Assembly (NCBI RefSeq): GCF_001314225.1
Contig: NZ_CP012697.1
Span: 3,596,001-3,660,000, forward strand
From: Microbacterium sp. No. 7
GTDB lineage: Bacteria; Actinomycetota; Actinomycetes; Actinomycetales; Microbacteriaceae
Reading direction: 5' to 3'
DNA length: 64,000 bases
Shown here: positions 3,119 to 33,611 of the stretch, piece by piece
How positions within the stretch are numbered: the stretch's first letter is position 1
Layout: every line of letters begins with the position of its first letter
Program-made: the position numbers and the translations under genes
The notes under the pieces: generated by a model
The model's input: the letters and a program-made list of their open reading frames with translations, nothing else
Database searches by the model: none
Told to the model about the DNA's origin: nothing

Positions 3119-4746
3119 GTGCGGTGGTCGCGGGCGAGATCGGCGACGGCGCGGGCGATGGCGGGGTCCTCGCCCCGGGCGAGGCCGGCGTACTCCACGA
3201 GGAGGCCGTCGTCCGACGGCGTCGCGCGCACCCACATGCGACGACGCGGCACGAACAGTCCCGCGAGCAGCCCGAGCGTCGCGAGCACCGAGAACGCGAG
3301 CACCCACGGCGCGCCGACGTCGCGGTGGATCGACAGCGACACGTAGCGCGGCACGCTCTCGGGCGCGCCGTCCGCCGTCGCGTCCTCGAACGTGATCGTG
3401 CCGCGGCCCCCGGGGATCTCGGCCGTCTCGCCGAGCAGGATCATGATCTCGTCGGCATCCGCGCCCGGGCCCGCGATCGGCGTCATGCCCGTCGGGTCGA
3501 GCGCGTACACGTTGCGCGGGATGCCGTCGTTGATGCCCAGGTCGCCGGCGAACACCCGCAGCGACACCATCGGGTTCACCAGCTCGGGCCACGCCGACGC
3601 GAACGCCCCCGACTCCTTCTGCGCCGCGGACGGGTAGAAGAACCCGACCATGCCGATCTGCTCGTCGAGCCCGTCGGCGATCTTGACGACGCCCATCGAC
3701 GTCATCATGGTGTCCTGCGGCAGGAACTTCACGGCCTCGCGGAACACGATGTCGCCGTCGGGGTCGCGCACCGTGAGGATCGGCGCGTACCCGTTGCCCA
3801 TGAGGTAGATGCGGTCGCCCGCGACCGTGAGCGGGTGGTTGACCCGCACGGCCTCCTCGCGCGGTCCCTGTCCCGGCTCGGTGACCGTCAGCCGCGCCGC
3901 GAAGTCGCCCGCCTGCCCCGCGCCGGGCTCGCCGAACGGGATGTACGACACGTCGAACCGGTCGAGCGCGAGCGAGTAGGGCGAGAGGTGGTCGGGGTCG
4001 ACGAAGCGCCCCTGATTGAACGACGAGTACCCGAGGCCGAGCGAGTTGACGAAGCTCTCGCCCTCCAGGATCACTGTCTGCCCCGTGTAGGTGAACCCGC
4101 CGCCGATGCCGACCGACAGCAGCACGCCCACGAGCGAGGCGTGGAAGACGAGGTTGCCCGTCTCGCGCAGGTACCCGCGCTCCGCCGAGACGGAGGCGGA
4201 CACCGATCCCGCACGCGTCGCGTCGTAGCGCTCGACGCGGTAGCCCAGCCTGCGCAGCTGCCCCTCGGCGACGTCGATCGCGTGCACGGCGGCGGCCCCG
4301 GCATCCTCCCCGTCGCGCAGCGGCACGATGTTCTCGGCGTGGTCGTCGAGCCTCGAGAGGCGCGCGGGCGTGCGCGGCGGACGCGAGCGCAGCGCCTTCC
4401 AGTGGTGCTTCGTGCGCGGGATGACGCAGCCGATGAGCGACACGAACAGCAGGATGTAGATCGCCGAGAACCACACCGACGTGTACACGTCGAACAGCTG
4501 CAGCGCGTCGAGCACGGGGAACAGGTCGGGGTTGTCGCTGCGGTACTGGGCGACGCCGTTGGGGTCGGCGCCGCGCTGCGGCACGATCGACCCCGGGATC
4601 GCGGCGATCGCGAGCGCGAGCAGCAGCACGAGCGCCGTGCGCATGCTCGTGAGCTGCCGCCACCCCCAGCGCAGCCAGCCGACGAGGCCCAGCTGCGGCT
4701 GCGAGATCGCACGCTCGTCGTCCACGTCAGAGGGGGAGCTCGACAC
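3103..4746 (-). CDS. resB: Cytochrome c biogenesis protein ResB
   Basis: Second half of the system II haem lyase, working with CcsB outside the membrane. The 547-aa protein has hydrophobic segments near residues 35-55 (ALVLLLALAIAAIPGSIVPQ), 80-105 and 175-200, then a large extracytoplasmic region with YTGQTVILEGE and FVDPD-type blocks, and a last helix near 490-510 (WVLAFSVLATLGLLAGLFVP) before a short basic tail. This is the normal ResB plan. The GTG at 4746 overlaps the end of ccdA by 20 nt, which indicates translational coupling; a GTG eight codons downstream is an alternative start. Confidence 0.95.
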   Translation of the reverse strand: MSSSPSDVDDERAISQPQLGLVGWLRWGWRQLTSMRTALVLLLALAIAAIPGSIVPQRGADPNGVAQYRSDNPDLFPVLDALQLFDVYTSVWFSAIYILLFVSLIGCVIPRTKHHWKALRSRPPRTPARLSRLDDHAENIVPLRDGEDAGAAAVHAIDVAEGQLRRLGYRVERYDATRAGSVSASVSAERGYLRETGNLVFHASLVGVLLSVGIGGGFTYTGQTVILEGESFVNSLGLGYSSFNQGRFVDPDHLSPYSLALDRFDVSYIPFGEPGAGQAGDFAARLTVTEPGQGPREEAVRVNHPLTVAGDRIYLMGNGYAPILTVRDPDGDIVFREAVKFLPQDTMMTSMGVVKIADGLDEQIGMVGFFYPSAAQKESGAFASAWPELVNPMVSLRVFAGDLGINDGIPRNVYALDPTGMTPIAGPGADADEIMILLGETAEIPGGRGTITFEDATADGAPESVPRYVSLSIHRDVGAPWVLAFSVLATLGLLAGLFVPRRRMWVRATPSDDGLLVEYAGLARGEDPAIARAVADLARDHRTALEA

Positions 4747-6144: not shown

Positions 6145-6785
6145 ACCGCCCCCACGTCGATCGCGCCCGAGGTCGCGGCCGGCTCGGCGTAGGCGACCTC
6201 GCGCCAGCGGCCGCCGCCCGCGCCGCCGTCCTCGAGCACGAAGCTCGTGACGCTCGACAGCGCGCAGCGGCGCTTGCGGGGGTCGTGCCGCAGCGGCTCG
6301 CCCGCGACGGCGAGGTGCGTGATCCAGATCGGCAGCTGGTGCGACACGATCACCACGTCGCCGCCCGGGGCGGCGTTCCAGGCGTCGCGCATGGCGGCGT
6401 CCATCCGTGCGACGACCTGCGCGTACGGCTCGCCCCAGCTGGGGCGCGACGGGGCGCGCAGGTGCCACCAGTTGAGGGGGTTGCGCAGGGCGCGGCTCAT
6501 GCGCCGGCCCTCGAACACGTTGGTCGGCTCGATGACGCGCTCGTCGATGCGGGGCTCGAGGCCGAAGAGCTCGGTGAACGGCTCGGCCGACTCGCGGGTG
6601 CGCTGCAGCGGCGAGGCGACGAGCGTCGTGACGGGGCGGTCGAGGCCGCGCACGTGCTCGGCGGCGGCGCGCGCCATGCCGCGGCCCGCGTCGCTCAGCC
6701 GGTAGTGCGGCAGTCGCCCGTACAGCACGCGCTCGGGGTTGTGGACCTCCCCGTGGCGCACGAGATGGAGGCGATCGGCGGGCAC
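6141..6785 (-). CDS. Histidine phosphatase (phosphoglycerate mutase-like) family protein
   Basis: Member of the branch-1 histidine phosphatase superfamily. The catalytic LVRHGEVHNPE motif lies at residues 8-18. The second conserved Arg is seen in SPLQRTRESAEPF, and the second His in VVIVSHQLPIW. The 214-aa length is typical. Substrate cannot be told; members hydrolyse phosphosugars, phosphonucleotides or cofactor precursors. Genes of this type often precede the ccs/res cluster in actinobacteria, and this one overlaps the tlpA-like gene by 4 nt, so it is probably co-transcribed with the cytochrome maturation genes. Confidence 0.9.
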   Translation of the reverse strand: MPADRLHLVRHGEVHNPERVLYGRLPHYRLSDAGRGMARAAAEHVRGLDRPVTTLVASPLQRTRESAEPFTELFGLEPRIDERVIEPTNVFEGRRMSRALRNPLNWWHLRAPSRPSWGEPYAQVVARMDAAMRDAWNAAPGGDVVIVSHQLPIWITHLAVAGEPLRHDPRKRRCALSSVTSFVLEDGGAGGGRWREVAYAEPAATSGAIDVGAV

Positions 6786-6794
6786 CCGACCATC

Positions 6795-7616
6795 CTATGT
6801 GTGCGTCGTTATGGATGAGCCGGGAGCGCTCGCGTCCGCCGCGACCCCGTCCGTCGCGGCCTCCGCCGCGGGCTCGGCCTGCTGCTCGGCCAGCTGCTCG
6901 GCCGGGGACGTGGATGCCGGCTCCGCCGCCTCTGCCGGGCCCGGGACGCCGCCCGGTCGAGCGCCCTTCCTCGCCGCCTTCGCGGCCCACAGCCCCCGCA
7001 CGCGCGCGATCACGAACCACGCGACGGCGGCGCCCGCGACGACGATGACGATGTACTGCAGGACGTCGGTGTACTGCTCGACGACGGGCCACGCCTCGCC
7101 GAGGAAGAAGCCCGCGAGCACGAACACGGTGTTCCACACGAGCGATCCGATGCCCGTGAGCAGCGTGAACCGCCAGAGCGGCATGCGCGTGATGCCGGCG
7201 GGGATCGAGATGAGGCTGCGGAAGATCGGAATCATCCGGCCGAAGAGCACGGCCTTGCCGCCGTGCTTGGCGAACCAGGCGACCGTGCGGTCGATGTCCT
7301 CCGGATGCAGCAGCGGCACGCGCGCGGCGATAGCGCGCAGGCGGTCGAGACCGAGCAGGGCGCCGAGGCCGTAGAGCAGCAGGGCGCCGACGATCGATCC
7401 CGCGGTGGTCCACGCGATCGCCTCGACGAGCGTGAACGATCCGCGCGACGCGGCGAGGCCCGCCATCGGCAGGATCACCTCGCTCGGCAGCGGCGGGAAG
7501 ATGTTCTCCAGCGCGATCGCGAGGGCCGCGCCGGGAGCGCCGATGACGTCCATCAGGCCCACCGACCACTCGGCCAGCATGCCCAGCCAGGAGCCGTCGT
7601 TCGTCGTGTCGCTCAT
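6795..7616 (-). CDS. DedA/VTT-domain membrane protein
   Basis: DedA proteins are polytopic membrane proteins implicated in lipid carrier or phospholipid scrambling and envelope homeostasis. Visible here are the family's early ENIFPPLPSEVILPMAG motif (residues 41-57) and the FGRMIPIFRSLISIPAG motif, followed by helices and an Ala/Glu-rich cytoplasmic tail of about 50 residues. The ATG at 7616 (MSDTTNDGSW) is chosen over an upstream in-frame start because the extra 24 residues look non-coding. Nine nucleotides separate the stop from the phosphatase start, so it may lead the cytochrome maturation operon. Confidence 0.9.
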   Translation of the reverse strand: MSDTTNDGSWLGMLAEWSVGLMDVIGAPGAALAIALENIFPPLPSEVILPMAGLAASRGSFTLVEAIAWTTAGSIVGALLLYGLGALLGLDRLRAIAARVPLLHPEDIDRTVAWFAKHGGKAVLFGRMIPIFRSLISIPAGITRMPLWRFTLLTGIGSLVWNTVFVLAGFFLGEAWPVVEQYTDVLQYIVIVVAGAAVAWFVIARVRGLWAAKAARKGARPGGVPGPAEAAEPASTSPAEQLAEQQAEPAAEAATDGVAADASAPGSSITTHT

Positions 7617-7689
7617 CGGGTGTCTCCAGGGGTCGGGGAGGGCGCTCGGTGATCGCCGCGACCAGGGTGCGGACACGACGTGTCCCACC

Positions 7690-8691
7690 TTACGAGACGT
7701 TCCTTGCGGATTCCCTGGGTGCCGCGTCGGATCCGCCGGCCCGGCTGCGCCAGCGCGCGCGGGCCGACCGGAACCTCGCGAGCACCGGGTCGAACCGTCG
7801 CTGCACGAGCATGACGCTCAGCACGACGACGACCGCGCCGGCCGGCTCGTGCCATCCGAGACGCTCGTTCAGGAGCACGGCGCCGAGCACCACCCCCACG
7901 AGCGGCGTCAGATAGGTCACGGTCGCCGCGGCGAGCGAGCCCCACGCGACGATCACGCGCGTGTTCCACACGTAGGCGAGCCCGGTGCCGAGCACGCCGA
8001 GGGCGAGCAGGCTCAGCACGGGCACCGCGTCGAGGACCACCGGCGTCACCGCGACGAACGGCACGAGCACGACGGCGATCCCGGCCGCGGCCACCAGCTG
8101 CACGGAGGCGACGGCGAGCGGGTCGTGCCGGTGCCTGCCGGTGACGAAGCGCTGCATCCAGGCGAAGGCGAGGCCGTACGACGCCGTCGCGGCGAGGCAG
8201 GCGGCCTGGGCGGGCAACGAGGAGAGGAACACCGGGTCGGTGACCACGCGCCACACGCCCATGGTCAGCGCCACGCCGGCGACGCCGAGAGCGACGCCGA
8301 GTGCCTGCCACGCCGTGAGCCGCGCGCCGCGCACGGCGACGGTCGTCGCGATCGCGGTCCAGATGGGTGTCGTCGCGTTGAGGATCGCGCTCAGCCCGGA
8401 CGGGAGGAACATCCCCGCCCACGCGAACAGCAGGAAGGGCACGACGCACAGCAGGCCGGCGACGACGGTCAGATGCGCCCAGAGCCGGCGTTCCCGCGGC
8501 CAGGCCCGCCGGGTCACGAGCATCAGCGCCGTCAGGGTCGCCGCACCGATGAGGATGCGCCCGAGAGCCACCTGCGCGGGCGTGAAGGCCCCCAGCGCGA
8601 CCTTCATCAGCAGGAAGCTGGAGCCCCAGACGAGCGCCAGCGCCAGGTAGGCGGCGAGCGTCGCCGCGTGCCGGTCGTTCGTCGTGGGCAT
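7690..8691 (-). CDS. EamA-family (DMT superfamily) transporter
   Basis: Ten-helix drug/metabolite transporter made of two EamA repeats. The first repeat starts LALALVWGSSFLLMKVALG and the second contains SYGLAFAWMQRF, with GVVLGAVLLNERLGWHEPAG near the end, the usual second-repeat signature. About 333 aa from the ATG at 8691; in-frame starts at 8700 and 8721 would add only a few residues. The C terminus is a short basic tail. The substrate cannot be predicted. It stands alone on the minus strand, divergent from aspS across 113 bp. Confidence 0.88.
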   Translation of the reverse strand: MPTTNDRHAATLAAYLALALVWGSSFLLMKVALGAFTPAQVALGRILIGAATLTALMLVTRRAWPRERRLWAHLTVVAGLLCVVPFLLFAWAGMFLPSGLSAILNATTPIWTAIATTVAVRGARLTAWQALGVALGVAGVALTMGVWRVVTDPVFLSSLPAQAACLAATASYGLAFAWMQRFVTGRHRHDPLAVASVQLVAAAGIAVVLVPFVAVTPVVLDAVPVLSLLALGVLGTGLAYVWNTRVIVAWGSLAAATVTYLTPLVGVVLGAVLLNERLGWHEPAGAVVVVLSVMLVQRRFDPVLARFRSARARWRSRAGGSDAAPRESARNVS

Positions 8692-11094: not shown

Positions 11095-11442
11095 ATGGCT
11101 TCCAAGAGCACGAGCACCACAGGAGTTCAGCACGGCCGCGGCCGGCGAGCGTCCGGGCGAATCGCGGCGGCAGTGCTGTCGCTCGGCATCGTCGTCGCCA
11201 GCGCTCCGGCAGTTCATGCGGGGGTGATGTACAACGTCGGCTCCTGGTGGGGCGAGGCGTACGCCTCCGGATACTCCAACACGGGCGCCGACGGATTCCT
11301 GCAAGGGCACGCACGGCTGGGTGACAAGGTCGACTGGGGGAAGTACTCCAAGGTCGAGACGAGAGCATACGTGTCGGGCTTCAACTTCTCGCACCAGGCG
11401 ATCCTCTACAGGAACGGCGCGATCTACGCACGTGCCCAGTGA
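11095..11442 (+). CDS. Secreted small protein, locus A (unknown family)
   Basis: A 115-aa precursor: a basic N terminus with Twin-Arg-free residues to about 24, a hydrophobic core (AAAVLSLGIVVASAPAV) and a probable signal peptidase site after VHA (about residue 42). The mature part is about 73 residues, rich in Gly, Tyr and Trp (GSWWGEAYASGYSN), without cysteine. It is clearly homologous to 29788-30132; the shared core is ARLGD..DWG..S...T.A..SGF.F.HQAI.YR.G, ending in AQ. I do not recognise the family. Size, Sec export and lack of cysteine recall lactococcin 972-type bacteriocins, but that family's sequence signature is absent. A strong promoter and G-rich ribosome site precede it and two lipoprotein genes follow. 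Confidence 0.8.
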   Translation: MASKSTSTTGVQHGRGRRASGRIAAAVLSLGIVVASAPAVHAGVMYNVGSWWGEAYASGYSNTGADGFLQGHARLGDKVDWGKYSKVETRAYVSGFNFSHQAILYRNGAIYARAQ

Positions 11443-11485: not shown

Positions 11486-12124
11486 GTGATCGGCGGGAGG
11501 CGGTCGCGGTGGTTCTGCGGACTTGCGGCCGTCTCGTCGCTGATGCTCCTGACGGGATGCGGCTCACCGGGCACGGGGCCACGGGAGGGCAAGATCGCGA
11601 GCTCGATGGGCGCTCTCATCGAAGAGGCACTGTCGGGTGAGATGTCGGACTGGGATCGCGCCGTCCTGGAGCGGGCGCGGGAAACCGGGCAGATCAGTCA
11701 TGCCGACTATCTGGAAGGGGTCGGACTGTACGAGGACTGCATGGCGGCGGCGGGCATTCCGCTGGTACGGACCGACCACCCCAACGGTCTCGTCGAGCTC
11801 CAGCCCGGCGCCGTGCCCGCCGGCGACGACGGAGACGAGCAGCTCCTGCGAACGAACCACGAGTGCATGTCGGAGACGTACGGCACCACGCAGGATCTGT
11901 ACGGCTTTCAGCGCGGGAACCCGGACTTGCTGCGCGATTCGGCCGAGGTCGTCGTCCGGTGTCTCGCCGACGCCGGGGTCATCGACGATCAGTTCGACCG
12001 CGACGATTTCCAAGCCCGCGTCCTCGACGACTTCTCGCCCGAGAGGCTGCCGTTCGACATCATGGACGCGCAGGTTCAGAGCTGCTTGTACGGGGCGGGG
12101 ATGTCATTCCTGGTCGTAGAATAG
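11486..12124 (+). CDS. Lipoprotein of unknown family, locus A copy 1
   Basis: A 212-aa lipoprotein: signal peptide with lipobox LLTGC at about residue 25. The body carries conserved blocks SDWDRAVLERARETGQIS.ADYLEG, YEDCM, DHPNGLVE.QP, ECM, NPDLLRDS.EVVVRCL.DAG, RDDFQ, PERLPFDIMD and VQSCL. The four conserved cysteines after the lipid-modified one (in the CM, ECM, RCL and SCL blocks) probably form two disulfides outside the membrane. The GTG start at 11486 is supported by identity with copy 2 over the whole leader. It begins 43 nt after the secreted small protein and is probably in its operon. Function unknown; homologues lie at 12176, 28952 and 30215. Confidence 0.8.
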   Translation: MIGGRRSRWFCGLAAVSSLMLLTGCGSPGTGPREGKIASSMGALIEEALSGEMSDWDRAVLERARETGQISHADYLEGVGLYEDCMAAAGIPLVRTDHPNGLVELQPGAVPAGDDGDEQLLRTNHECMSETYGTTQDLYGFQRGNPDLLRDSAEVVVRCLADAGVIDDQFDRDDFQARVLDDFSPERLPFDIMDAQVQSCLYGAGMSFLVVE

Positions 12125-12175: not shown

Positions 12176-12814
12176 GTGATCGGCGGGAGGCGGTCACGGT
12201 GGTTCTGCGCACTTGCGGCCGTCTCGTCGCTGATGCTCCTGACGGGATGCGGCTCACCGGGCACGGGGCCACGGGAGGGCAAGATCGCGAGCTCGATGGG
12301 CGCCCTCATCGAGCAGACGCTGTCCGATGAGATGTCGGACTGGGACCGTGCCGTCCTGGAGCGGGCGCGGGAAACCGGGCAGATCAGTCATGCCGACTAT
12401 CTGGAAGGGGTCGGGCTGTACGAGGACTGCATGTCAGTGGCCGGCATCCCACTGGTACGGACAGACCACCCCAACGGTCTCGTCGAGCTCCAGCCCGGTG
12501 CTGCGCCTGCCGATGAAGAAGGGCTCGATATACTCATGCGCACCAATCACGAGTGCATGTCGGACACGTACGGCGCGATTCAAGAGCTGTACCGCTATCA
12601 GCAGGGCAACCCTGACCTGCTGCGCGACTCGTCCGAGGTCGTCGTCCGGTGTCTCGCCGACGCCGGGGTCATCGACGACCGCTTCGATCGCGACGACTTC
12701 CAAGCCCAGGTGCTCGACGACTTCACACCCGAGAGGCTGCCGTTCGACATCATGGACCCCCAGGTTCAGAGCTGCTTGCACGTGGCGGGGATCGCCTTCC
12801 TTGTCGACGAATGA
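12176..12814 (+). CDS. Lipoprotein of unknown family, locus A copy 2
   Basis: Tandem duplicate of the gene at 11486, same length (212 aa) and same GTG start with an identical 20-nt leader. The first third, through the signal peptide and the SDWDRAVLERA block, is almost identical to copy 1 in DNA. The middle (around ADEEGLDILMRTNHECM) and the last residues (AFLVDE) have diverged. All conserved cysteines are kept. The gap to copy 1 is 51 bp. The pattern fits a recent duplication or gene conversion limited to the 5' half. Probably a surface lipoprotein working with the secreted small protein; role unknown. Confidence 0.8.
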   Translation: MIGGRRSRWFCALAAVSSLMLLTGCGSPGTGPREGKIASSMGALIEQTLSDEMSDWDRAVLERARETGQISHADYLEGVGLYEDCMSVAGIPLVRTDHPNGLVELQPGAAPADEEGLDILMRTNHECMSDTYGAIQELYRYQQGNPDLLRDSSEVVVRCLADAGVIDDRFDRDDFQAQVLDDFTPERLPFDIMDPQVQSCLHVAGIAFLVDE

Positions 12815-28750: not shown

Positions 28751-28951
28751 CATATAGAGTTGTCATCGGCACCCGCGCCGGACCGGCACCGCTTCGCCCG
28801 GACGCGCGGCCGACGACGAATCCGGGGGGATCGCATCATGGCGAACGGAGCACGACGCGGGACGGACAGACCGGGCGATGGGCGCCGTGATCGACGTCAC
28901 GACGACGCCGACGGGATGCGCGCAGACGTCGCTCGGCGATCGCCCGTCCCG
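28751..28951 (+). pseudogene. Leader and 5' remnant of a secreted small protein gene, locus B
   Basis: The leader copies that of 29788: CATATA(A/G)AGTTG near the start, CGAATCCGGGGGGATC before the ATG at 28838. The next codons read MANGARRGTDRPGDGRR, matching MENTTRSTARTGTLRRR of the intact gene. After about 50 bp the similarity jumps to the spacer that precedes the lipoprotein gene in the intact unit (GATGCGCGCA and on). A deletion of about 290 bp therefore removed most of the small gene. The remnant is in frame with the lipoprotein at 28952 and could add 38 residues to it. The -35-like TTGTCA lacks the TATGGT found in the intact leader. Confidence 0.65.
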
Positions 28952-29581
28952 ATGCGCATCACACGCCGGCCGCTCGCGGCTCTCCTGCCCGCGCTTCTCG
29001 CCGTGACGGCATGCGGGGCCGACACGCCGGCCGCAGAAACGGGAACCTACGCGAGCTCGCTGGAGGCCATGATCGAGCAGGAGCTAGGGCGCAGCGAGCT
29101 CTCCGACTGGGACCGGGCGGTCTTAGAGAAGGCCCTGGAAACCGGTCAGGTCAGTCGCGCCGACTATCTCGAGGGCGCCGAGATGTACGAACAGTGCATG
29201 GCCGCTGCCGGCTTCGCAATGAAACGCACCGATCATCCCAACGGGCTCGTCGAGCATCAGCCCGCAACGGTCTCCGCCGACGACGCCGAACGCGACGCGA
29301 AAATGCTCGCCGACTACGAATGCATGCTGTCGGGCTACGCCAGCACTCAGGAGATATACCGCTTTCAAACGGCGAACCCCGACCTTCTCAGGGACTCCTC
29401 CGAGGTCGTCGTCCGCTGTCTCTTCGACGCCGGCATCATCGACGAGGACTTCACACGGGACGACTTCCAGGCCCACGTCCGCGACGACTACACACCCGAG
29501 AAGCTCCCCTTCGACATCATGGACGCCACCGTGCAGTCCTGCCTCTGGGGCGCCGGCATCGTCTTCCGGGACTACGGATGA
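28952..29581 (+). CDS. Lipoprotein of unknown family, locus B copy 1
   Basis: A 209-aa homologue of the locus A lipoproteins and a close paralogue of 30215. The signal peptide MRITRRPLAALLPALLAVTAC has a VTAC lipobox. Conserved blocks: SDWDRAVLEKALETGQVSRADYLEG, YEQCM, RTDHPNGLVEHQPA, YECM, NPDLLRDSSEVVVRCLFDAG, TRDDFQ, PEKLPFDIMD, VQSCLWGAG. The ATG at 28952 is chosen by alignment with 30215; translation from the well-placed ribosome site at 28838 would add 38 residues in front of the signal peptide. It stands directly behind the remnant of a secreted small gene. Confidence 0.8.
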   Translation: MRITRRPLAALLPALLAVTACGADTPAAETGTYASSLEAMIEQELGRSELSDWDRAVLEKALETGQVSRADYLEGAEMYEQCMAAAGFAMKRTDHPNGLVEHQPATVSADDAERDAKMLADYECMLSGYASTQEIYRFQTANPDLLRDSSEVVVRCLFDAGIIDEDFTRDDFQAHVRDDYTPEKLPFDIMDATVQSCLWGAGIVFRDYG

Positions 29582-29697
29582 GGCGGTCGATCCGCCTCGG
29601 CTGCGGACCGGCGGCCGCGCGGGAGATCCCACGAGACGGCCGCCGCCCTCGCACCCCGCTCGTCCGAGCACCGGACGTCATTCATGGCCATATAAAG

Positions 29698-29726
29698 TTG
29701 ACACTTCTGATGCTGCTGTCTATGGT
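29698..29726 (+). promoter_or_regulatory. Promoter of the intact locus B unit
   Basis: TTGACA (29698-29703), a 17-nt spacer and TATGGT (29721-29726), 62 nt before the ATG at 29788. The GGGGGGATC ribosome-site block lies at 29775-29783. Confidence 0.65.
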
Positions 29727-29787
29727 CGAACCGGCGCCGCATCCATTCGAGGACGCGACCCGACAACGAATCCGGGGGGATCACATC

Positions 29788-30132
29788 ATGGAGAACACGA
29801 CAAGAAGCACGGCACGAACGGGAACCCTGCGCCGACGCATCGTCCTCGGCGTTGGCAGTGCCATCGCGGCTGTGGGGCTCGTGTTCGGCACGGCTACGGC
29901 GGCGAGTGCCACGTCCCTCTACTACGTCCACTCCAGTTGGTGGGCAGCAAACGCGTGGGCAGTCTCGGACAATGGACTGAACGGCGAGTTTCTGGCCTAT
30001 GCCCGCCTCGGCGACACGGAGGACTGGGGTCGTCGTTCATACTTCAAGACAGAGGCCGAAGCGTCCGGATTCGACTTCACACATCAGGCGATCGTCTACC
30101 GCGACGGCAAGACCTGGAAGAAGGCCCAGTGA
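29788..30132 (+). CDS. Secreted small protein, locus B (unknown family)
   Basis: A 114-aa precursor homologous to 11095-11442. Basic N terminus to residue 18, hydrophobic core IVLGVGSAIAAVGLVFG, probable cleavage after ASA near residue 42. The mature part (about 72 residues, no cysteine) begins TSLYYVHSSWWAANAW. The shared core ARLGD..DWG, SGF.F.HQAI.YR.G is kept and the C terminus again ends AQ. Conservation is strongest in the second half, while the Trp-containing start varies around a common SWW. Followed at 83 bp by a lipoprotein gene and then an ABC module. Function unknown. Confidence 0.8.
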   Translation: MENTTRSTARTGTLRRRIVLGVGSAIAAVGLVFGTATAASATSLYYVHSSWWAANAWAVSDNGLNGEFLAYARLGDTEDWGRRSYFKTEAEASGFDFTHQAIVYRDGKTWKKAQ

Positions 30133-30214
30133 CCGACGTCCCGGCGGCACCGCCGGGGCACATGCATGTGTTCGACGTTGCGATGCGCGCATCACTGGGC
30201 AGTCACTCGCACTC

Positions 30215-30844
30215 ATGCGCATGAGACGGTGGCCGCTCTCGGCTCTCCTGCCCGCGCTTCTCGCCGTCACGGCCTGCGGAGCAGGCACGCCGGCCGCAGA
30301 GACGGGAACCTACGCGAGCTCGCTGGAAGCCATGATCGAGCAGGAGCTCGAGCGCAACGAACTCTCCGACTGGGACCGGGCGGTGCTCGAAAAGGCCCTG
30401 GAAACCGGTCAGATCAGCCGCGCCGACTACCTTGAGGGCGCCGACATGTACGAACAGTGCATGGCCGCGGCCAGCGTCGCGATGAAACGCACCGATCACC
30501 CCAACGGACTCATCGAGCACCAGCCCGCAACGGTCTCCGCCGACGACGCCGAACGCGACGCGAAAATCAGCGCCGATCACGAGTGCATGCGCGCCGGCTG
30601 GGGGCGCACGCAGGAGCTGTACAGCTTCCAGACGGCGAACCCCGACCTCCTCAGGGACTCCTCCGAGGTCGTCGTCCGCTGCCTCTTCGACGCCGGCATC
30701 ATCGACGAGGACTTCACGCGGGACGACTTCCAGGCCTACGTCCGCGACGACTACACACCCGAGAAGCTCCCCTTCGACATCATGGACGCCACCGTGCAGT
30801 CCTGCCTCTGGGGCGCCGGCATCGTCTTCCGGGACTACCGGTGA
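30215..30844 (+). CDS. Lipoprotein of unknown family, locus B copy 2
   Basis: A 209-aa paralogue of 28952, near identical in its last 60 residues and signal peptide (ALLPALLAVTAC). It differs mainly around residues 120-145 (SADHECMRAGWGRTQELYS). The four conserved extracytoplasmic cysteines are kept. The ATG at 30215 aligns with the paralogue; an ATG two codons later is possible. Its TGA overlaps the GTG of the adaptor gene (GTGA), so this lipoprotein is translationally coupled to the ABC module, the best evidence that the two act together. Confidence 0.82.
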   Translation: MRMRRWPLSALLPALLAVTACGAGTPAAETGTYASSLEAMIEQELERNELSDWDRAVLEKALETGQISRADYLEGADMYEQCMAAASVAMKRTDHPNGLIEHQPATVSADDAERDAKISADHECMRAGWGRTQELYSFQTANPDLLRDSSEVVVRCLFDAGIIDEDFTRDDFQAYVRDDYTPEKLPFDIMDATVQSCLWGAGIVFRDYR

Positions 30845-31914
30845 GGCGATCGATCGCGGTCGCGAGCGCCTTCGCCCTGGGATGCGGGATCGTCGCGAGC
30901 GCGACCGTCGCGGCTTTCCTGCTCCCGCGGCCCGCCGGCGTGCTGGCCGCGGCGGAGCCGGAGACGACGTATCCCGTCACCCTGAACGAGCACGCAGACA
31001 GGCGTCCCGTCGCACTGGTGCCGACCTTCACCGAGGGCTTCGCGCTGACCGCGCACGCCGGCGGCATGGTGACGGCGTCGGCGTGCGTCCCGGGAGGCGC
31101 GCTGGCCAGCGGGGAGATCGCGCTCGTCCTGGATGCCGCGCCCGTCGTGGCCCTCGCCGCTCCGCGACCGTTCCACCGCGACCTCGCCTTCGGCGACGAG
31201 GGCGACGACGTCGTCGCGCTGCGAGGCGCGCTCAACGCCCTCGGCGCGGAGCTCCCCGCCGACGGCGCGTTCGACGGAGACGTCGCCGACGCGCTGCGCG
31301 AACTGCAGGACAGAACCGGCACGACATCCGACGACGGCGTGTTCCGCCTGCGCGACATCCTCTGGCTCCCCCGCGACGGCGTGCGCCTGGCCAGTTGCGA
31401 CGCCCGGCTCGGCCAGGCGTTCGGCCCGGGCTCGACCTTCGCGGTCACGGAACGCACGCTGGCATCACTCGCCGTCGCGAGCGAGGCCAGGGAGCAGCGC
31501 GAGCAGCCCGTGCCCGGCGAGCGCACGCTGACCCTGCTCGGCGTCGAGGTCGTGCTCCCCGCCGACGGCGTCATCGACGATCCCGATGAGGTGGCCGCGA
31601 TCGCCGCGAACCCCCAGTTCGCCGCGATCGCCGCGGGCGCGCCGGGATCGGGCGGAACCCAGCCGGCGATCCCCGCCCAGTCACAGCTCGTGCAGCCGGT
31701 GCACGTCGCCGCGGTGCCGCCGTCCAGCGTCTTCGCCCTCGACGGCGCTCGCGGATGCGTCTCGTCCGACGACGCCGCGCACCCGGTCACCGTCGTCGGC
31801 TCGAACCTCGGCATGTCGCTCGTGGCCTTCGAGGGCGACGCACCGGCATCGGTTCTGATCGACGGAGACATCGCCGAAGCGGAGGGATGCCGTGACGGCG
31901 ACGCCGCGGATTGA
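30841..31914 (+). CDS. Peptidoglycan-binding membrane-fusion-type protein
   Basis: A 357-aa protein with one N-terminal membrane segment (IAVASAFALGCGIVASATVAAFLL) and an extracytoplasmic body. Residues near 115-165 form a PG_binding_1 domain (LAFGDEGDDVVALRGALNALG.ELPADGAFDGDVADALRELQ). Flanking beta-rich regions resemble adaptor (HlyD/MacA-like) proteins that accompany MacB-type ABC systems in actinobacteria. The GTG at 30841 overlaps the lipoprotein stop, and its own end overlaps the ATPase start by 23 nt. The likely role is a wall-anchored adaptor linking the ABC permease to the cell wall or to the exported small protein. Confidence 0.78.
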   Translation: MRRSIAVASAFALGCGIVASATVAAFLLPRPAGVLAAAEPETTYPVTLNEHADRRPVALVPTFTEGFALTAHAGGMVTASACVPGGALASGEIALVLDAAPVVALAAPRPFHRDLAFGDEGDDVVALRGALNALGAELPADGAFDGDVADALRELQDRTGTTSDDGVFRLRDILWLPRDGVRLASCDARLGQAFGPGSTFAVTERTLASLAVASEAREQREQPVPGERTLTLLGVEVVLPADGVIDDPDEVAAIAANPQFAAIAAGAPGSGGTQPAIPAQSQLVQPVHVAAVPPSSVFALDGARGCVSSDDAAHPVTVVGSNLGMSLVAFEGDAPASVLIDGDIAEAEGCRDGDAAD

Positions 31915-32527
31915 GCTCTGCGCCGTGTCGCACCGCTGGAACGAACGGTCTCCGATGCTCTTCGAGAACGTGACGGTCACCGTTCGGGCGGGGCAGATGG
32001 TCGCCGTGACCGGACCGTCGGGCGCGGGCAAGTCCACCCTGCTGTCCATCGTCGCAGGCTGGCTGCCGCCGCTCGCGGGCACCGTGCGCCGCGAGCACGT
32101 CGCGCGCACGCACTGGGTGTTCCAGAACCCCTACGGACTGCCGCGTCGCACGGCACTCGACCACGTGGCGTTCCCCTTTCTCGCGCGTGGCGAACGACGA
32201 CCGGATGCCGCGTCGGCCGCGACCCGGCTGATGCGGAGGTTCGGTCTGGGCGACCGCACACGGTCCGCTTTCGCCGATCTGTCGGGCGGGGAGGCCCAGC
32301 GGCTCATGCTCGCGCGCGCCGTCGCGGCACAGCCGCAGCTCCTGCTCGTCGACGAGCCCACGGCGCAGCTCGACCGGGCGTCGGCGCGAACGGTCAACGA
32401 GGTGCTCGCCGGCCTCGCCGGCGAGGGGACGATCGTGCTGGTCGCGTCGCACGATCCGGAGACCGTCGCCGCGTGCCCCGACGCCATCGAGCTCGGCGGC
32501 GGCTCCGTCACGAGGCCCGCTCCATGA
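31892..32527 (+). CDS. ABC transporter ATP-binding protein, MacB/LolD-like
   Basis: A 211-aa ATPase with Walker A TGPSGAGKSTL (near residue 40), a Q-loop in WVFQNPYGLPRRTALDHV, signature LSGGEAQRLMLARAV, Walker B LLLVDEPTAQLD and switch His in VASHDPE. The size and sequence fit the short ATPases that partner FtsX-like permeases. The start is a GTG inside the adaptor gene. The 3' end carries a 14-bp tandem duplication that shifts the junction with the permease gene. Confidence 0.9.
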   Translation: MTATPRIELCAVSHRWNERSPMLFENVTVTVRAGQMVAVTGPSGAGKSTLLSIVAGWLPPLAGTVRREHVARTHWVFQNPYGLPRRTALDHVAFPFLARGERRPDAASAATRLMRRFGLGDRTRSAFADLSGGEAQRLMLARAVAAQPQLLLVDEPTAQLDRASARTVNEVLAGLAGEGTIVLVASHDPETVAACPDAIELGGGSVTRPAP

Positions 32528-32537
32528 GGCCCGCTCC

Positions 32538-33611
32538 ATGAGACTCAGGGAGGCGCTGGGCGAGGCGGCGCGCAACCTCATGACCGGCACGAGTCGCGGC
32601 GGCGTTCTCGTGATCGTGGCATGGGCCCTGGCGACCGCGCTTCTGGCGTCGGACGCCGCGGCGATCGCGAGTCTGCAGGCTCGCGCCCTCGAGCTGCGCG
32701 CGCAGGCCGGGAACGTGCGCGTCGTCGTCGCAGAGGATGCCATCGACCCGCGCGCGTGCGCCCGGCTCGAGGAGCTGAACGGCGTCACCTCGGCGGGCGC
32801 CGTCTGGGCGCTCGACGCCGTCGCGCTGTCGGCGCTCCCCGGCATCAGCACGCCCGCGTTCCGGGTGTCGCCGGGCGTCGCCGAGATGCTCGGGTTCCCC
32901 GGCTTCCAGGTCGGCGGTCTCTACCTGCCCCAGCCGCTCGTCGAGCGCTGGCACGCGCCGACCGGCACGACGCTGAGCGCCGACGGCGGGGGTCTGCACG
33001 TCGCGGGGACCTTCGACTACACCGAGGAGGACGGCCGCGATCCGCGTCTCGCGAGCGCCGTCGTGATCGCCGGCGACTCCCCCGAGCGGGCGTCGGAGTG
33101 CTGGTTCTCGGTGTGGCATCCCACGCGGGCGATGGACCGGTTCGCGCTCGGCACCGTGGTCGCCTCGACGTCGAACGACAGCGGAGCCCAGGTGGTCGCA
33201 CTGAACTCGAGCGTCGGAGACAAGCACGATCTCGCTCGCGAGTTCACGGATCGCGTGACCCGCGCGCTGGCGCCGTTCGTGGTCGTGCTGTTCGGCGCGC
33301 TGGGGTTCGGCGGGATGCATCTGCGCCGCATCGAGATCGCGAGCGGACTGCACGCGGGGGCGCGTCGCCGCGACATCGCGCTCATCGTGGGGGCCGAGAC
33401 GGGGGCGTGGGCGCTCACCGCCGGCGTCGCCACGTTCGCGTGCGTGCGCTTCATCGCGGCGGCGGTCATGCCCGAACCGCTCCCGTCGTACGAGCCGTCG
33501 CTCGCCGCCGTCGTGTGCGCCGCGGTCGCCGGCGCCGTCTTCGGCGCGCTCCTCGTCGTGGCCGTCGCCCGCGAGGACCGCCTGTTCACGATCTTCAAGG
33601 CGCGGTCCTGA
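32538..33611 (+). CDS. FtsX/MacB-like ABC permease
   Basis: A 357-aa membrane protein: one helix near residues 22-45, a long extracytoplasmic domain of about 200 residues (with two Cys), then three helices (ALAPFVVVLFGALGFGGM, AETGAWALTAGVATFACVRF, LAAVVCAAVAGAVFGALLVVAVA). This 1+3 plan is that of FtsX/MacB permeases, which act mechanically on substrates in the extracytoplasmic space rather than by classical transport. It ends the locus B operon. Confidence 0.82.
   Translation: MRLREALGEAARNLMTGTSRGGVLVIVAWALATALLASDAAAIASLQARALELRAQAGNVRVVVAEDAIDPRACARLEELNGVTSAGAVWALDAVALSALPGISTPAFRVSPGVAEMLGFPGFQVGGLYLPQPLVERWHAPTGTTLSADGGGLHVAGTFDYTEEDGRDPRLASAVVIAGDSPERASECWFSVWHPTRAMDRFALGTVVASTSNDSGAQVVALNSSVGDKHDLAREFTDRVTRALAPFVVVLFGALGFGGMHLRRIEIASGLHAGARRRDIALIVGAETGAWALTAGVATFACVRFIAAAVMPEPLPSYEPSLAAVVCAAVAGAVFGALLVVAVAREDRLFTIFKARS

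Follow-up and report, generated by a model that had tools for sequence, protein, structure and literature searches.

Lactococcin 972, which folds as a beta-sandwich (PDB 2lgn), represents a bacteriocin family (Lactococcin_972; PF09683, TIGR01653) with a signal peptide, a short mature part and downstream ATP-binding cassette (ABC) genes, usually those of a TIGR01654-type protein and a TIGR03608 ATPase. Three further systems resemble parts of what is described here. LanI and LanFEG guard the producer of a secreted peptide by means of a surface lipoprotein and an ABC transporter, the BceAB module has a ten-transmembrane (TM) permease with a large extracellular loop and a cognate BceRS, and MacAB combines adaptor, ATPase and permease, MacA-like adaptors serving efflux. 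Here we analyze a stretch of 64,000 nucleotides of Microbacterium sp. No. 7 (assembly GCF_001314225.1, contig NZ_CP012697.1, positions 3,596,001 to 3,660,000; hereafter the window), in which two loci, A and B, each encode a small secreted protein (SP-A and SP-B) and two lipoproteins (LPs), and locus B continues into an adaptor, an ATPase and a permease. By analogy, we judge a divergent secreted bacteriocin with an immunity lipoprotein and a dedicated ABC pump to be the best reading of these genes, and a rather probable one; it gains from the repeated gene order and from true Lactococcin_972 genes that stand before the same cassette in three genomes.

A sequence-only reading of the window had listed locus B as LP1, SP-B, LP2, adaptor, ATPase and permease and locus A as SP-A with two LPs and no ABC genes, and all of these genes were found as claimed, with start points slightly corrected (Table 1). 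The GTG start of the adaptor overlaps the LP2 stop (GTGA), as that reading had it, and the ATPase and adaptor frames share 23 bases. Its protein descriptions also held: the LPs of locus B, put at about 210 residues, have 209, and all four LPs of the two loci have a lipobox cysteine and four further cysteines, which are invariant across an alignment of 14 family members; the mature parts of SP-A and SP-B, with the cleavage site set by eye, are 73 residues each, lack cysteine and are 45% identical. Signal peptides were read from sequence features; both N-termini have a basic start followed by a hydrophobic segment (residues 19–37 in SP-A, 18–36 in SP-B), as in a secreted protein with a short mature part. 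The start of SP-B faintly resembles the Tat-target profile TIGR02811 (E = 0.055, below its cut-off). The promoter scan that gave a match at SP-B gave no sigma-70-like match at locus A.

Table 1. Features of loci A and B, in window coordinates (aa, amino acids; RBS, ribosome-binding site).
Feature	Position	Strand	Remarks
SP-A, small secreted protein, 115 aa	11095..11442	+	mature part 11221-11439
Locus A lipoprotein, first copy	11486..12124	+	
Locus A lipoprotein, second copy, DNA 89% identical to first	12176..12814	+	
Leader duplicate with RBS-like GGGGGGATC and ATG at 28838, probable SP-gene remnant 5' of LP1	28779..28951	+	from alignment
LP1, lipoprotein, 209 aa, lipobox Cys21 and Cys82, 124, 156, 197	28952..29581	+	
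Sigma-70-like promoter match 5' of SP-B, TTGACA-17-TATGGT	29698..29726	+	1 match against 0.1 expected in shuffles
SP-B, small secreted protein, 114 aa, probable bacteriocin by analogy	29788..30132	+	mature part 29911-30129, 73 aa
LP2, lipoprotein, 209 aa, probable immunity or capture role by analogy	30215..30844	+	
Adaptor, N-terminal TM segment and PG_binding_1 domain	30841..31914	+	PF01471 24.8 bits, cut-off 23
ABC ATPase	31892..32527	+	ABC_tran PF00005; Walker A GPSGAGKS, LSGGE, Walker B LLLVDE
Permease, 1 N-terminal and 3 C-terminal TM segments	32538..33611	+	extracytoplasmic domain of about 200 residues between

Searching the genome itself with LP2 gave seven places, four of them inside the window. 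Locus L017, at about 371–376 kb of contig G000:C1, begins with a small protein and an LP paralogue, which are followed by a divergent LP and a second small protein on the opposite strand and then by adaptor, ATPase and permease. The small protein at 4420–4725 of this locus is a true Lactococcin_972, with 45.8 bits to PF09683 (cut-off 22), 39.4 bits to TIGR01653 (cut-off 32.1) and a match to 2lgn at E = 1.7e-7. Among 396 genomes of the order, PF09683 at E ≤ 0.01 gave 27 matches in 24 genomes, 22 of which are above the cut-off. Three of the 27 (in this genome, G343 and G295) lie no more than 1 kb from an LP and 3 kb from an adaptor, and the gene order in G343 and G295 is as in L017, with Lactococcin_972, LP and adaptor-ATPase-permease; in all three the SP slot of the cassette is filled by a true family member. 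The small proteins of L086 and L087, like that of L017, score above the PF09683 cut-off.

The LP profile matched at least 91 of the 396 genomes (E ≤ 0.001) and the adaptor profile at least 195 (E ≤ 1e-6, many of them weakly). Proximity was counted for the 100 best LP and 72 best adaptor matches among those listed and for all 27 PF09683 matches: 55 of these adaptors have one of these LPs within 3 kb, as do 47 of the 48 adaptors at E < 1e-50, and 73 of the LPs have one of the adaptors within 6 kb. A further 40 cassettes (L086–L125) were fetched and their genes marked with our own hidden Markov models (HMMs). Because these were chosen for co-occurrence of LP and adaptor, the 51 full cassettes found among 54 are not evidence of linkage, and the proximity counts are.

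A small secreted protein adjoins the LP in 21 of the 51 full cassettes, the window included (17, together with L089, L098, L105 and L121), by a list sorted by eye from open reading frames (ORFs); an automatic version based on upstream ORFs left out L082, L083 and L085. Directly upstream on the same strand, a signal-peptide ORF was found at 17 of 78 LPs versus 7 of 348 control genes from these loci (odds 13.6 times higher, Fisher p = 7e-9), three of the 17 being PF09683 genes. The close SP family has three occurrences in 148 genomes (two here and one in G009), all adjoining an LP. The claim that SP and LP recur only together goes too far: the close SP family was beside an LP in 3 of 3 cases and did not prove to be usually encoded without one, but LP cassettes without a recognizable SP are common. 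A profile built from SP-A, SP-B and the G009 protein ranks four other LP-neighbor small proteins among the first 10 of 5,209 distinct ORFs (p = 1.6e-8), one of which, at 6321–6629 of L017, lies inside the Lactococcin_972 locus; L017b and L109 score above 200 of 200 shuffles and L096 above 199 of 200. By this profile the window SPs are linked to some other small proteins of the cassette, which as a group are hypervariable.

The ABC genes of the window are a distinct alternative set that can stand beside Lactococcin_972, because the family scores differ and the ATPases form one clade. In two canonical loci (L144 and L130), the partner is a multi-TM protein of about 665 residues with a weak match to TIGR01654 (38 and 25.6 bits, cut-off 189), and the ATPases match TIGR03608 first (192 and 172.7 bits, below the cut-off of 254.85). 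For the window ATPase, FtsE (131.1 bits) and others come ahead of TIGR03608 (105.3 bits), and the two cassette ATPases tested both have FtsE first, below its cut-off, and TIGR03608 at 105.3 and 115 bits. In an ATPase tree labeled by gene position alone, a single clade (support 0.832) takes in all 50 ATPases from cassettes and just one of the 29 others, which comes from a rearranged cassette (L091). The usual Lactococcin_972 partners, a TIGR01654-type protein and a TIGR03608 ATPase, are missing from the window genes, which comprise the LP and adaptor along with a different ATPase and a permease of four TM segments that matches no family. Conversely, in the 20 other PF09683 stretches that were read, our own HMMs matched no LP, adaptor or permease, and they matched an ABC ATPase in 18; these stretches hold 21 of the 27 matches, three more being L017, L086 and L087, with G397, G403 and G457 left out.

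The module had also been called MacB-like, which is correct for its gene order and topology. Adaptor, ATPase and permease are shared with MacAB, and hydropathy places the permease TM segments at residues 23–41, 240–258, 293–311 and 325–343, the 1+3 arrangement of MacB around an extracytoplasmic domain. At the level of families the resemblance is not seen: the window permease has no Pfam or NCBIfam match and no MacB_PCD or FtsX match at E ≤ 1, and the weak MacB matches that exist are below cut-off (19.2 bits to MacB_PCD, cut-off 27, for the L017 permease). The Pfam search of the adaptor gave PG_binding_1 only, with no HlyD/MacA domain, and, unlike MacAB, ATPase and permease are separate genes here and are tied to an LP. 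LanI and LanFEG, compared by description only, share the logic of a surface lipoprotein and an ABC transporter but differ in permease architecture, and no modification enzyme is among the genes of either locus. With BceAB the shared feature is an ABC near a response regulator and histidine kinase (RR/HK), seen in 7 of the 51 full cassettes (L076, L077, L080, L081, L088, L089 and L118), whereas the permease here has four TM segments, an LP and an adaptor are added, and no such regulator is present at the window loci.

LP1 and LP2 sit in a DNA duplication with 89% identity, and the LP pair of locus A sits in another. A 71-base leader block 5' of LP1 and the SP-B leader share 79% identity, and past the leader local alignments reach the start and end parts of SP-B, although these remnant alignments have no shuffle control. 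Because of the duplication and the shared leader, the SP-LP pair was probably duplicated in tandem, the upstream SP having then decayed to a remnant before LP1. A protective role fits the LP, as it was apparently kept after SP loss, is duplicated and is coupled to the adaptor. Other cassettes (L092, L095, L098, L105, L111 and L117) carry at least three LP copies each, some on opposite strands, as if collected, and in L079 a nameless protein of 353 residues (6787–7848) lies between LP and adaptor.

If the bacteriocin reading is right, the SP would be an antibacterial protein, about 73 residues long, that is exported by a cleavable signal peptide, more likely through Sec than Tat, and attacks the envelope of related competitors, while each locus would also encode protection for its own side. 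The LP, which its lipobox cysteine would anchor to the outside of the producer membrane, would capture the SP at the surface, and adaptor, ATPase and permease would make up a tripartite ABC transporter with the topology of MacB, driven by cytoplasmic ATP, that pulls the SP off its target or expels it. Locus A would provide a second SP with two LPs and use the locus B pump in trans. Toxicity of the SP, its target, its capture by the LP and the direction of pumping are what we infer from the genes.

Several results weigh against this reading. Full-length SP-A and SP-B have no Lactococcin_972 match at E ≤ 1 in Pfam or NCBIfam, their other matches being at chance level; against our own Lactococcin_972 profile from 23 loci, shuffles score as well in 252 of 300 cases for SP-A and 11 of 300 for SP-B, and hhalign gives the alignment of window SPs to the family a probability of 0.1%. 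These searches give the window SPs no place in Lactococcin_972 by sequence, and no curated Pfam or NCBIfam family matches SP or LP above cut-off. A predicted model of SP-A is all-beta with seven strands, is weak (pLDDT 62.8, pTM 0.58) and has no specific structural match. We therefore regard the SPs as probable functional analogues of lactococcins by gene position, not as family members. Furthermore, 24 of the 27 PF09683 matches have none of the best 100 LPs or best 72 adaptors within 10 kb, 30 of the 51 full cassettes show no small protein by the criteria used, the other 13 of the 17 cassette small proteins fall outside the top 80 of the SP profile (ranks 82 to 4,164), and the SP-LP similarity correlation of 0.34 is hardly above that of SP and permease (0.28). 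Finally, the seven cassettes that adjoin RR/HK genes may respond to foreign agents and not to an SP of their own.

The last point leads to an account in which LP and ABC serve as a general envelope defense against foreign cell-wall-active peptides, as BceAB does, and the small proteins nearby are there incidentally or by recruitment. Some cassettes have no small protein, a few of these stand beside RR/HK genes, and 27 of the 100 best LPs have none of the best 72 adaptors within 6 kb; we nevertheless think it quite improbable, given the enrichment of small signal-peptide ORFs before the LP and the four small proteins whose remote similarity to the window SPs is above chance. The RR/HK genes can also be taken as a sign of peptide signaling, with the SP as a pheromone, the LP, a surface protein with four invariant cysteines, as its receptor, and the ABC, in some cases with a two-component system, relaying or clearing the signal. 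Of the seven RR/HK cassettes, L081 and L089 include a small secreted protein and the other five do not, a search confined to RR/HK genes of this type found none within 3 kb of L017 or of either window locus, and the small proteins are hypervariable, three of them belonging to a bacteriocin family, all of which makes signaling improbable. Hence, where the sequence-only reading had proposed an exported effector, bacteriocin-like or signaling, with cognate surface lipoproteins and an ABC, the bacteriocin alternative gains by analogy and signaling fares poorly.

It is also unlikely that the ABC exports the SP or loads it to the surface, with the LP assisting export as a chaperone or tether and no part in immunity, given that the SPs begin with signal-peptide-like segments and can thus cross the membrane without an ABC, that locus A has an SP and LPs without ABC genes, and that many ABC cassettes have no recognizable SP. 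Such a role would agree with the efflux function of MacA-like adaptors. It would also agree with the name 'putative bacteriocin export ABC transporter' that NCBIfam gives to TIGR03608, to which the ATPases of the two canonical PF09683 loci are closest.

Extending the reading of a bacteriocin with LP and pump beyond the window, we tentatively suggest, as a possibility, a widespread superfamily of hypervariable exported actinomycete bacteriocins, of which Lactococcin_972 would be one branch, each with a four-cysteine immunity lipoprotein and a tripartite ABC; the LP would pass its cognate toxin on to the pump, so that immunity in two steps would exist outside lantibiotics. If true, this would assign a function to the SP, LP and permease families, which carry no curated name here, make unannotated bacteriocins findable through their conserved LP-adaptor neighbors, and offer a tractable model of Gram-positive producer resistance to lactococcin-972-type proteins.

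Locus B is accessory, because its flanks lie 57–982 bases apart in 19 same-genus genomes. The flanking genes, helicase-like and NadE-like by our own naming, are about 5.0 kb apart in this genome; among 28 other same-genus genomes, 19 have both on one contig, at 57–307 bases in 17 and wider in G009 (692 bases) and G015 (982 bases), G019 has them on different contigs and eight are without a NadE match. The flanks of locus A are 95 bases apart in G018, 4.4 kb in G010 and 16.9 kb in G011. The SP/LP stretches have a G+C content of 66%, versus 71–74% for the flanks and the ABC genes.

Two observations concern the rest of the genome. At about 2.488 Mb, a decayed cassette (L016 3579–6552; G000:C1:2482500-2496500) has an LP and a permease that look intact, an adaptor frame that diverges from the family at its end and a truncated ATPase; directly 5' of its LP, a 73-residue ORF is faintly like the SP C-terminus (6 of 2,000 shuffles as good). 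An IS21-like element, by our own reading, with ORFs of 492 and 270 residues, occupies L003 23–2310 (G000:C1:503495 onward) and seven other places, and the region of the 270-residue ORF has eight equal chance matches over all three contigs, so that there are probably eight copies.

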